From Chloroflexota bacterium (lineage in GTDB: Bacteria > Chloroflexota > Limnocylindria > Limnocylindrales > CSP1-4), in assembly GCA_003158875.1 (NCBI GenBank), contig PMLK01000080.1:1-35598 (forward strand): a stretch of DNA of 35,598 nt. The letters run 5' to 3'. The position numbers were made by a program, and so were the translations under genes. The notes under the pieces are model-generated. The model saw only the letters and a program-made list of their open reading frames with translations, was not told the DNA's origin and ran no database searches. This document shows, piece after piece, positions 33,252 to 35,598 of this stretch (its first letter is position 1; every line of letters starts with the position of its first letter).

Positions 33252-33920
33252 ATGGAACAGGCACGATCGTCGGAATCCTTCGCCGGGGTCACAGTCGGCG
33301 AGTTCGTAGAGCGACTCTCGAGCGGTGAACCCGTGCCCGGAGGAGGGGCGGCTTCGGCGGTCGCGGCGGCGCTCGGGGCGTCTCTCGTCTCGATGGTTGC
33401 GGCGCTATCCAAGGGCAAGCCCAAGTACGCAATCTACGGCCAGACCCTCGGTCGGTGCGAGGCCGTCGGCCGCGAACTGGGAGCCGAACTCCTGGCCCTG
33501 TCCGATCGCGATGCCGAGGCCTACGCCGGCTACTCGGCGGCGCTGAAGATGCCTCGAGAGACGGACGATCAGCAGAAAGCCCGGCGGTCGGCGATCCAGA
33601 TAGCGGCCCGGGACGCCTCCGATGCGCCGTTCGCCTGCGTCAAGGCGTGCGCCCGCTTGCTGGTCGCTGCCGAGGCGCTGGCCGGCCGCAGCAACGTCAA
33701 CGCTGCCAGCGACGTGCTCGTGGCCGCATTGCTCGGCGAAGCCGCGGCGCGGGGAGCGGCCGAGAACGTGCTCATCAATCTGCCTATGACCGGCGACGAG
33801 TCGTATTCGGAGTCGATGCGCTGGCAGGTAGACGTCGTTCTCCACGAGATTGCCGCCGGAGCGGCTCGAACTCGCGAGATCGTTCTGTCCGGTCAGTCTC
33901 GAGATCCGGAGCAAGCGTGA
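33252..33920 (+). CDS. fchA: Cyclodeaminase/cyclohydrolase family protein (FchA, methenyl-THF cyclohydrolase)
   Basis: A 222-residue, mainly helical protein of the formiminotransferase-cyclodeaminase C-terminal family. The signature is PVPGGGAASAVAAALGASLVSMVA (residues 28-50), followed by GKPKYA and later ASDAPFACVKACARLL and GRSNVNAASDVLVAALLGEAAARGAAENVLINL. Stand-alone members act either as formimino-THF cyclodeaminases or, as in methylotrophs, as methenyl-THF cyclohydrolases (methenyl-THF to 10-formyl-THF). Position before folD and fhs, with GTGA and ATGA overlaps, argues for the cyclohydrolase role, strengthened by the missing lysine in the adjacent FolD. ATG 33252 is set by the leaderless promoter; upstream in-frame codons belong to the preceding gene region. 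Confidence 0.9.
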   Translation: MEQARSSESFAGVTVGEFVERLSSGEPVPGGGAASAVAAALGASLVSMVAALSKGKPKYAIYGQTLGRCEAVGRELGAELLALSDRDAEAYAGYSAALKMPRETDDQQKARRSAIQIAARDASDAPFACVKACARLLVAAEALAGRSNVNAASDVLVAALLGEAAARGAAENVLINLPMTGDESYSESMRWQVDVVLHEIAAGAARTREIVLSGQSRDPEQA

Positions 33921-34843
33921 GCGGCGGACGCGACGGCGCGGCCCTGTTGAACGCGGACCGAGGACTCGCATCGGAGCCGCGCCTCCTTCTCGGCGGCCCC
34001 ATCGCCACGGAAATCCGCGCCGGTCTGGCAGAGGATTTCGCCGCGTTCAAGGCGCGCTGGGGGAAGGTGCCGACACTGGCCATCGTGCTCGTCGGGGCCG
34101 ATGCGCCGTCCGCCGTATATCTGCAGCAGATCCTTCGCTCCTGCCAGAAGGTCGGCGTAGACGGTCGCCTCGTCGAGATCGGCGGCGACGTCACTCCGGA
34201 CGCGGTCTGCGAGCAAATCGAACGACTCAACGCGGACCCGTCAGTTGCCGGGATCATCGTCCAGATGCCGCTCCCGTCCCATATTTCGCTCCGCACCGTT
34301 ATCGACAGCATCGACCCGGCCAAGGACATCGATGGCATCCATCCCCGCAACGCCGGTCTGCTCTCGCTGGGTTACGACGGCTTCCTGCCGGCTACTGCAC
34401 AGGCTTCCGTCGAGATCCTGAAACGCTCGGGAATCGAGATCGCCGGCAAGCGCGTGGTCGTGGTTGGCCGCTCCAATGTCGTCGGCAAACCGGCGGCGCT
34501 GCTCCTCATCCGCGAGCACGGCACGGTGACGGTTCTGCATTCGCGGACTCGCGACCTGGGCCACCACACCCGCGACGCGGAGATACTCGTCGTGGCGGCG
34601 GGCAAGCCCGGACTCATAACCGGCGAGATGCTCTCGCCGGGCGCCGTTGTAGTCGACGTCGGCATCAATGTGGTCCCGGACGGTGCCGGGGGCGAGAAAC
34701 TGGTGGGCGACGTGGACTTCGACTCGGCCAGGGGCGTCGTCTCAGCCATCACGCCGGTCCCGGGCGGGGTAGGGCCGCTGACCAACGCCCTGCTTCTGAG
34801 CCACTTGCTCCAAGCCGCCACGGATCAAGAGGCGCGGCGATGA
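33917..34843 (+). CDS. folD: FolD-like methylene-THF dehydrogenase, apparently lacking the cyclohydrolase lysine
   Basis: A 308-residue FolD family protein (usually about 285-300). Folate-side motifs: SAVYLQQILRSCQKVGV (Y68), GIIVQMPLPSHI (Q116) and PAKDIDGIHPRNAGLL (D139). The nucleotide-binding half has VVVVGRSNVVGKPAA and PGGVGPLTNALLL. The residue four after the tyrosine, lysine in E. coli FolD (Y50-V-A-S-K54) and essential for cyclohydrolase activity, is isoleucine here (I72, codon ATC). The usual PCTP is PATA. The dehydrogenase features look intact. GTG 33917 overlaps the fchA stop (GTGA), and its stop overlaps the fhs ATG. I infer a dehydrogenase-only enzyme that hands methenyl-THF to FchA. 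The first 20 residues are an extra N-terminal stretch. Confidence 0.92.
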   Translation: MSGGRDGAALLNADRGLASEPRLLLGGPIATEIRAGLAEDFAAFKARWGKVPTLAIVLVGADAPSAVYLQQILRSCQKVGVDGRLVEIGGDVTPDAVCEQIERLNADPSVAGIIVQMPLPSHISLRTVIDSIDPAKDIDGIHPRNAGLLSLGYDGFLPATAQASVEILKRSGIEIAGKRVVVVGRSNVVGKPAALLLIREHGTVTVLHSRTRDLGHHTRDAEILVVAAGKPGLITGEMLSPGAVVVDVGINVVPDGAGGEKLVGDVDFDSARGVVSAITPVPGGVGPLTNALLLSHLLQAATDQEARR

Positions 34844-35598
34844 GCGGCCCCATGCCCAGCAGCCTCGAGATCGCCCGCTCCGTAACCCCGCGGCCGATCA
34901 TCGAGCTCGCCCGCGAACTCGGCCTCCACGACGACGAAGTGGAGCAGTACGGGCCCTACAAGGCCAAGGTCTGCCTGGACGGCGTGGAGCGCCTCGAGCG
35001 CGAGTCTTACGCCAGCGGCCGCCGCGGCAAGTACGTGGTCGTCACCGCGATAACCCCGACGCCGCTCGGCGAGGGCAAGACCACTACCAACGTCGGCCTC
35101 GTTCAGGGGCTCAACCGAATCGGCCACCGCGCGGCGGTCTGCATTCGCCAGCCGAGCCTCGGCCCCGTGTTCGGAATCAAGGGCGGGGCTGCCGGCGGCG
35201 GCTACAGCCAGGTGATCCCCATGGAGGACTTCAACCTCCACCTCACCGGCGACAACCACGCGGTCGGGTCCGCCCACAACCTGCTCGCGGCCTTCGTCGA
35301 CAACTCGCTGACCCACAACAATCCTCTCGGCATAGACCCTCTCGGCGTTCTGTGGCCGCGAGTCGTCGACATCTCGGACCGGGCTGTGCGGCACGCGATC
35401 GTGGGGCTGGGCGGCCGCGAAAACGGATATCCCCGAGAAACCGAGTGGCAGATAACCGTGGCGTCGGAAGTGATGGCCGCCCTGGCGTTGGCGTCCGACA
35501 TCCACGACCTGCGCGCCCGGCTCGGGCGAATGGTCGTCGCCACGAGCTTCGACGGTCGGAGGATCACGGCCGAAGACCTCAAGTGCGCCGGCTCGATG
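34840..35598 (+). CDS. fhs: Formate--tetrahydrofolate ligase (10-formyl-THF synthetase), partial
   Basis: The first 253 residues of Fhs (normally about 550-560), cut by the window end. It joins formate to THF using ATP to give 10-formyl-THF. Visible motifs: SLEIARSVTPRPIIELARELG at the start, P-loop PTPLGEGKTTT (73-83), RQPSLGPVFGIKGGAAGGGYSQV, the segment with MEDFNLHLTGD, and NPLGIDPLGVLWPRVVDISDRAVR. All are canonical, so the enzyme should be active if the rest is intact. ATG 34840 overlaps the folD stop as ATGA; no separate ribosome site is needed. With FchA and FolD it makes a complete linear route between formate and methylene-THF. Confidence 0.97.
   Translation, partial: MSGPMPSSLEIARSVTPRPIIELARELGLHDDEVEQYGPYKAKVCLDGVERLERESYASGRRGKYVVVTAITPTPLGEGKTTTNVGLVQGLNRIGHRAAVCIRQPSLGPVFGIKGGAAGGGYSQVIPMEDFNLHLTGDNHAVGSAHNLLAAFVDNSLTHNNPLGIDPLGVLWPRVVDISDRAVRHAIVGLGGRENGYPRETEWQITVASEVMAALALASDIHDLRARLGRMVVATSFDGRRITAEDLKCAGSM

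Follow-up and report, generated by a model that had tools for sequence, protein, structure and literature searches.

The last three genes of a 35,598-nucleotide stretch of DNA from a Chloroflexota bacterium (contig PMLK01000080.1 of assembly GCA_003158875.1; the whole stretch is referred to as the window), fchA, folD, and fhs, probably form an operon in which the two activities of FolD have been divided: FolD would act as the methylene-tetrahydrofolate (THF) dehydrogenase, FchA as the cyclohydrolase and most likely also as the cyclodeaminase of the histidine pathway, and Fhs would complete the route to formate. Comparison across genomes suggests that the cyclohydrolase step has apparently been lost from FolD because the neighboring FchA carries out that reaction. 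A division of labor between FolD and FchA had been proposed in a first-pass annotation of the window. It holds up in the correlation between FolD residues and fchA reported below, although the substitution belongs to old subfamilies and is no recent loss, the arrangement is already known, and a role in histidine breakdown has to be added.

The residue in question is Ile72, which stands where the Y-x3-K motif of a bifunctional FolD has the lysine required for cyclohydrolase activity (table 1). The gapless placement on which the first-pass annotation relied is borne out both by alignments to solved FolDs and by the family alignment, and the active-site Gln and Asp, which it had also reported as retained, were read from the codons (Gln116 and Asp139, together with Tyr68). 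The lysine column holds Lys in 197/197 intact FolDs, where "intact" means by definition that the Lys of Y-x3-K and the Gln are present; it holds Ile in 39/39 fchA-linked FolDs of the nearest relatives, so that a sequencing error does not account for Ile72. No other alignment column gains a Lys or Arg throughout the lysine-less group, and hence no displaced lysine is visible in the sequence. In Escherichia coli FolD, the K54N variant is reported to keep about 19% of the dehydrogenase activity with undetectable cyclohydrolase, and Q98H about 8% and roughly 1%, respectively (passages of PMC5688156). The protein is otherwise a regular member of its family: Pfam matches to THF_DHG_CYH_C (PF02882; 201.8 bits) and THF_DHG_CYH (PF00763; 109.8 bits) both exceed the cut-off, solved FolDs are matched down to an E value of 3.5e-69, and the AlphaFold2 model (mean pLDDT 90.9, residues 1–17 poor) fits solved FolDs across the whole fold, with a TM-score of 0.95 to 4b4u (normalized by target). 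Among the matches listed (25 of 30), none of the NCBIfam models for bifunctional FolD reaches its cut-off, the best scoring 297.1 against 421; these models are narrow, and the result says little. The altered PCTP motif pointed out earlier is real (PATA, residues 158–161) but a weak marker of the split, as the Cys column holds Ala in 28/197 intact as well as in 74/128 lysine-less fchA-linked FolDs.

FolD sequences were collected from a scan of named genomes with peptide patterns lacking the lysine motif, from relatives, from evenly drawn phylum samples, and from further stretches. From 447 matches, 61 were removed as duplicates or because one of four sites had no letter (such as L236, adjacent to fchA with a gap at the lysine), which left 386 rows. 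None of the 136 de-duplicated FolDs adjoining fchA retains both Lys and Gln: the lysine is missing from 128 (Ile 85, Val 19, Leu 16, and Ala 8), 42 of which lack the Gln as well, and the remaining eight, all from Clostridia, keep the Lys and have Glu for Gln, which may be another way of losing the same FolD step. FolDs not adjoining fchA keep both residues in 197 of 250 cases. The expectation that lysine loss tracks fchA is thus borne out, with Lys or Gln lost in 136/136 adjacent rows, and the FolD of the window combines such a loss with fchA, as expected of a monofunctional enzyme. Adjacency alone is too narrow a predictor, many altered FolDs having fchA elsewhere in the genome (L083, L084). 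The clostridial Y-K-E-D FolDs (L212, L213, L223, L247, L249, L255, L256, and L265 regions, e.g., L313, L316, L325, and L331) keep Lys and have Glu for Gln in 8/8 rows beside fchA, with three more rows in genomes whose fchA is elsewhere.

At the level of genomes, the samples covered 111 Chloroflexota, 61 members of the Clostridia-type phylum around a Mogibacterium metagenome-assembled genome (MAG), 50 Actinomycetota around an Arthrobacter, and 45 Pseudomonadota around a Sphingopyxis; 260 of these 267 genomes had a usable FolD row and seven did not. All of the 101 genomes that encode altered FolDs only also encode a stand-alone FTCD_C (FchA-family) protein (101/101). Intact FolDs alone were found in 144 genomes and both kinds in 15; of these 159, a stand-alone FTCD_C is absent from 140 and present in 19, and conversely every genome with a FolD but without a stand-alone FTCD_C has an intact FolD (140/140). 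Genomes with only a long fused-type FTCD (11 + 3) and five with a weak FTCD_C match, sorted partly by frame length, were counted as lacking the stand-alone protein; with the five weak ones taken as present, the exceptions number 24 instead of 19. A Fisher test on this association gives 4e-53, a value that ignores kinship and is not taken as proof. A separate mixed set of 45 genomes, one of them with an unreadable row, gave a similar picture: a stand-alone FTCD_C is present in 14 of the 15 with a lysine-less FolD, the FolD of the fifteenth lying at a contig end, and in one of the 29 with a lysine-bearing FolD (L101/G198, with a formiminotransferase near by), which include four with the long fused type and three with weak matches. 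Actinomycetota genomes (L468 and L100 of G197, an Arthrobacter; G277, G280, G291, G295, G306, and G310) often encode two distinct FolDs, one intact and one altered, in most cases with a stand-alone FTCD_C beside the latter; this second pair may be catabolic.

Beyond the window the contig continues with genes of histidine degradation (table 1), including a formiminotransferase about 14 kb from fchA. The same neighborhood recurs in relatives: among 20 downstream stretches, 12 contain urocanase and nine the formiminotransferase, and in the eight same-genus stretches of at least 19 kb these counts are eight and seven, with the lyase in seven. All four histidine genes are found in G032, of the same family, and three in G059, of the same class; other genomes with altered FolDs have a formiminotransferase beside FTCD_C (G064, G135, G150, and G250). 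FchA matches FTCD_C (PF04961) with 179 bits against a cut-off of 24.5. Since the formiminotransferase pathway needs a cyclodeaminase, and a search of the assembly found no FTCD_C protein other than this FchA (nor more than one FolD), we propose FchA for both reactions: from its gene context it probably serves the histidine pathway as formimidoyl-THF cyclodeaminase too, perhaps as its primary function. The cyclohydrolase role originally assigned to FchA fits the way in which fchA tracks the FolD residues, but with the genes beyond the window it is no longer its only probable role. PMC8305020, considered for a possible connection of cyclohydrolase with histidine breakdown, deals with a different protein family.

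From the genes and residues described so far we infer the enzyme activities, the direction of flux, and the double role of FchA as follows. FolD, with Ile72 for the catalytic lysine and little or no cyclohydrolase activity, would interconvert 5,10-methylene-THF and 5,10-methenyl-THF; FchA would interconvert 5,10-methenyl-THF and 10-formyl-THF, and Fhs would join the latter to formate. FchA most likely also converts 5-formimino-THF to 5,10-methenyl-THF and ammonia, in which case the formimino carbon of histidine would enter at methenyl-THF and could pass on to purines, to formate with formation of ATP, or through FolD to methylene-THF.

It should be noted that several observations weigh against this interpretation. 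Among solved relatives, FchA is not much nearer to cyclohydrolase than to cyclodeaminase, the best match being the methenyl-THF cyclohydrolase 7vg4 (E 4.1e-29) and the next FTCD (1tt9, 1.7e-23), and it scores 145.3 against the cut-off of 275 of the NCBIfam FchA equivalog (NF045657). The assembly (2.64 Mb) is 91% complete; the labels HutH and HutI depend on broad Pfam families and context; and two more distant relatives (L535, L539) show no histidine genes within the stretch fetched. Methenyl-THF can also hydrolyze spontaneously (stated in part of PMC5688156). An intact FolD is kept in 19 of the 120 genomes that have both a stand-alone FTCD_C and a FolD: seven, all Actinomycetota, hold both FolD kinds and 12 the intact kind only. 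Seven of these 12 have their FTCD_C close to a formiminotransferase (G219, G226, G228, G239, G254, and G297) or to urocanase and amidohydrolase (G242), which indicates that having a histidine-type FTCD_C is not enough to free FolD from needing the lysine; in the remaining five (G214, G218, G257, G261, and G286) no histidine gene was seen among those neighbors of FTCD_C that were checked. Three genomes (G021, G028, and G036), not searched for fchA as a whole, have a lysine-less FolD with no fchA beside it within the stretch examined. The correlation moreover rests on few events, with strongly supported branches forcing only two changes between intact and altered FolDs, and a phylogenetic test on independent pairs had no power (median p 1).

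Three other explanations have to be weighed. FchA could be a cyclodeaminase only, in a cell without cyclohydrolase whose methenyl/methylene-THF pool, fed by serine, glycine, and histidine, would be joined to the 10-formyl-THF pool, made by Fhs from formate, only through the slow spontaneous reaction. The single FTCD_C of the assembly, the histidine cluster, and the score of FchA below the cyclohydrolase cut-off all fit this, as does the reported slow growth of E. coli K54N strains without enzymatic cyclohydrolase (a passage of PMC5688156). We nevertheless regard it as unlikely: among 142 stand-alone FTCD_C rows neighboring folD or a formiminotransferase gene, 132 have folD only within about 1.5 kb (a count that leaves room for more distant histidine genes), the nearest solved relative of FchA is a cyclohydrolase, and lysine loss would be predicted wherever FTCD_C adjoins histidine genes, which at least the seven genomes above contradict. 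The converse, that FchA is a cyclohydrolase only and that some other protein, either absent from the 91% assembly or not related to FTCD_C, is the cyclodeaminase, seems to us marginally less likely still. It is favored by the coupling of fchA to folD at some distance from the formiminotransferase, by the match to 7vg4, and by the FTCD_C tree, in which all rows around this FchA are folD-linked (22 and 45 rows); neither this assembly nor the same-genus G019 has a second FTCD_C, however, and G064 has formiminotransferase, FTCD_C, and folD together.

That FolD is still bifunctional through another residue, its link to fchA being a chance of descent, we consider very unlikely. Gln116 and Asp139 are indeed kept, and the trees show few independent events, but no replacement Lys or Arg is shared by the lysine-less FolDs, the K54N variant of E. 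coli has no detectable cyclohydrolase (PMC5688156, in part), and a different change at the same site, the clostridial Gln to Glu, also stands beside fchA (8/8). The division between a dehydrogenase FolD and a FchA with two roles thus remains the reading we prefer.

A further position changes together with the lysine. Among the 196 intact FolDs that have a letter at residue 290, 175 carry Ile or Val there and 21 Arg, and none (0/196) carries Asn, Thr, Ser, His, or Asp; one of these five residues occupies the position in 167/187 altered FolDs, and the FolD of the window has Asn. Residue 290 is Thr in the single-event FolDs of G234 and G250 and in the Gln-to-Glu group, and Ile in G245. By spacing it corresponds to V268 of E. 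coli FolD, which is described, with P260, G261, and P265, as a contact of the inhibitor carolacton; V268 and K54 both touch it in the active site (passages of PMC5688156). The altered site looks rebuilt rather than merely decayed, judging from this covariation, and it is a guess on our part that Asn or Thr at 290 restores dehydrogenase activity; the covariation offers a mutagenesis hypothesis for what sustains that activity without the lysine, given the low remainder in K54N.

Trees calculated with the motif columns left out (FastTree, 254 rows; IQ-TREE, 137 rows) require 11 and seven changes between intact and altered FolDs, respectively, and show two large altered groups plus several single events (G234, G245, G250, and the pair G106/G159). 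What gives the correlation its weight is that in one direction no exceptions occur, and not a large number of independent events. A recent loss of the lysine in this lineage was rejected, lysine-less FolDs spanning Limnocylindrales-type relatives, other Chloroflexota, Actinomycetota, Clostridia, and others; the substitution is a trait of FolD subfamilies that are old and widespread.

In eight genomes that lack a stand-alone FTCD_C, apart from a weak match in G235, a FolD with no lysine occurs together with one that has it; the two genes are adjacent in G106, G159, and G235. In six of the eight the lysine-bearing copy is changed elsewhere (L187 of G106, L181 of G159, L361 of G235, L365 of G263, L354/L373 of G266, and L369/L374 of G224); those of G317 and G326 look normal. 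Judged by Thr289, Gly184, and Gly190 of the dinucleotide site, five of the six have lost Thr289 (T267 in E. coli), which 180/181 other intact and 187/188 altered FolDs keep, and the copy of G159, a genome that also has a third, normal FolD, has Ser for Gly184. A six-residue criterion including Asn251 was dropped, as Asn251 varies freely in normal FolDs. These pairs look like a reciprocal split, at the level of residues, into dehydrogenase-only and cyclohydrolase-only copies. Extra FolD copies in which Gln replaces the lysine and Glu replaces the active-site Asp (Y-Q-Q-E or Y-Q-N-E; L354, L361, L365, L190, and L498) form a group found in Clostridia, Chloroflexota, and Pseudomonadota.

Taken together, these results allow a wider scenario, which we offer tentatively and hold somewhat less likely than not to apply in full: one FTCD_C protein serves both as cyclodeaminase and as the cyclohydrolase of the cell, its recruitment made the lysine dispensable, the FolD site was then remodeled (lysine to Ile, 290 to Asn/Thr), and some lineages without FTCD_C arrived at the split through two FolDs.

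Both the split between FolD and FchA and the gene arrangement are already known from Clostridium and acetogens. Aluri et al. in 2016 are said to have found that FolD of Clostridium perfringens is a dehydrogenase only, with FchA as cyclohydrolase and Fhs separate. As there, the three proteins of the window are separate; here, by contrast, they are found in the Chloroflexota, are coupled through GTGA and ATGA, are followed by histidine-degradation genes, and include the sole FTCD_C protein found. Fch of the Methylobacterium-type methylotrophs is likewise an FTCD_C protein acting as cyclohydrolase, 7vg4 being the best solved match of our FchA, with MtdA and not FolD as its partner dehydrogenase; in the Pseudomonadota sample, FTCD_C occurs in one genome, G346, where a FolD domain is matched with no more than 28 bits. 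FchA shares PF04961 with FTCD and the stand-alone cyclodeaminase, and a formiminotransferase and urocanase lie on its contig, but unlike in fused FTCD its gene is unfused and coupled to folD. A FolD-fold dehydrogenase without cyclohydrolase, as predicted here, also resembles yeast MTD1, which is only distantly related to this FolD (1edz, E 1.2e-4), and the enzyme of Peptostreptococcus productus, termed monofunctional in a passage of PMC6443876. Section 7 of PMC11064299 gives yeast MTD1 a cyclohydrolase function only, apparently a slip, as the title of the cited work names a monofunctional dehydrogenase. Parts of PMC7219735, PMC10472528, PMC3584212, and PMC7325909 describe FchA as a protein of its own in acetogens and C. 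perfringens. The fhs–fchA–folD methyl-branch cluster of Acetobacterium woodii, as presented in passages of PMC10472528 and PMC3584212, also keeps the three genes together, with FchA taken as the cyclohydrolase; it belongs to the Wood–Ljungdahl pathway, whose other genes were not seen in the scanned parts of our contig.

New are the link to histidine genes, the covariation of residue 290, and the FolD/FolD pairs, of which we recognized no report in the titles, abstracts, and passages searched, a body of literature that mostly excludes subscription papers. NCBIfam and other pipelines call such proteins bifunctional FolD; for whole phyla, this naming and the metabolic models that follow it would be put right by looking at two residues and at whether a stand-alone FTCD_C is present. 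The link to histidine genes suggests a way in which a catabolic enzyme can take over a central folate step, and the FolD/FolD pairs would represent another route to the same split, one that needs no FchA.

The reading frames fit the translational coupling noted in the first-pass annotation, with four-base overlaps between the fchA stop and the folD start (GTGA, 33917–33920) and between the folD stop and the fhs start (ATGA, 34840–34843).

Table 1. Features of the fchA–folD–fhs operon and of the contig downstream. Positions are those of the window, or of L375, the same contig from position 35500 on.
Feature	Position	Strand	Description
fchA	33252..33920	+	Stand-alone FTCD_C (PF04961) protein, 222 aa; ATG 33252, TGA 33918-33920
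folD	33917..34843	+	Predicted lysine-less methylene-THF dehydrogenase, 308 aa; GTG 33917, TGA 34841-34843
fhs	34840..35598	+	Formate-THF ligase, N-terminal part; ATG 34840, runs beyond the window
Tyr68 codon TAT	34118-34120	+	Y of Y-x3-K motif, kept
Ile72 codon ATC	34130-34132	+	Place of cyclohydrolase lysine (K54 E. coli, K56 human)
Gln116 codon CAG	34262-34264	+	Q98 in E. coli, kept
Asp139 codon GAT	34331-34333	+	D121 in E. coli, kept
Asn290 codon	34784-34786	+	V268 in E. coli by motif spacing
Aromatic amino acid lyase, histidine-ammonia-lyase type	L375:3647-5305		Downstream of fhs, same contig
Urocanase	L375:8838-10559		Downstream of fhs, same contig
Formiminotransferase (glutamate formiminotransferase)	L375:12158-13156		FTCD_N + FTCD domains at L375:12158-13153; same contig
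Amidohydrolase	L375:13153-14448		HutI by context; same contig

The part of Fhs inside the window matches FTHFS (PF01268) with 354.7 bits, and the C-terminal remainder (349.3 bits) follows on the same contig past the window end; two undetermined bases (NN, L375:100-101, contig 35599-35600) lie inside fhs directly after that end. Among named records, the nearest belong to fen and CSP1-4 MAGs labeled "Chloroflexi bacterium", plus one Candidatus Limnocylindrales.

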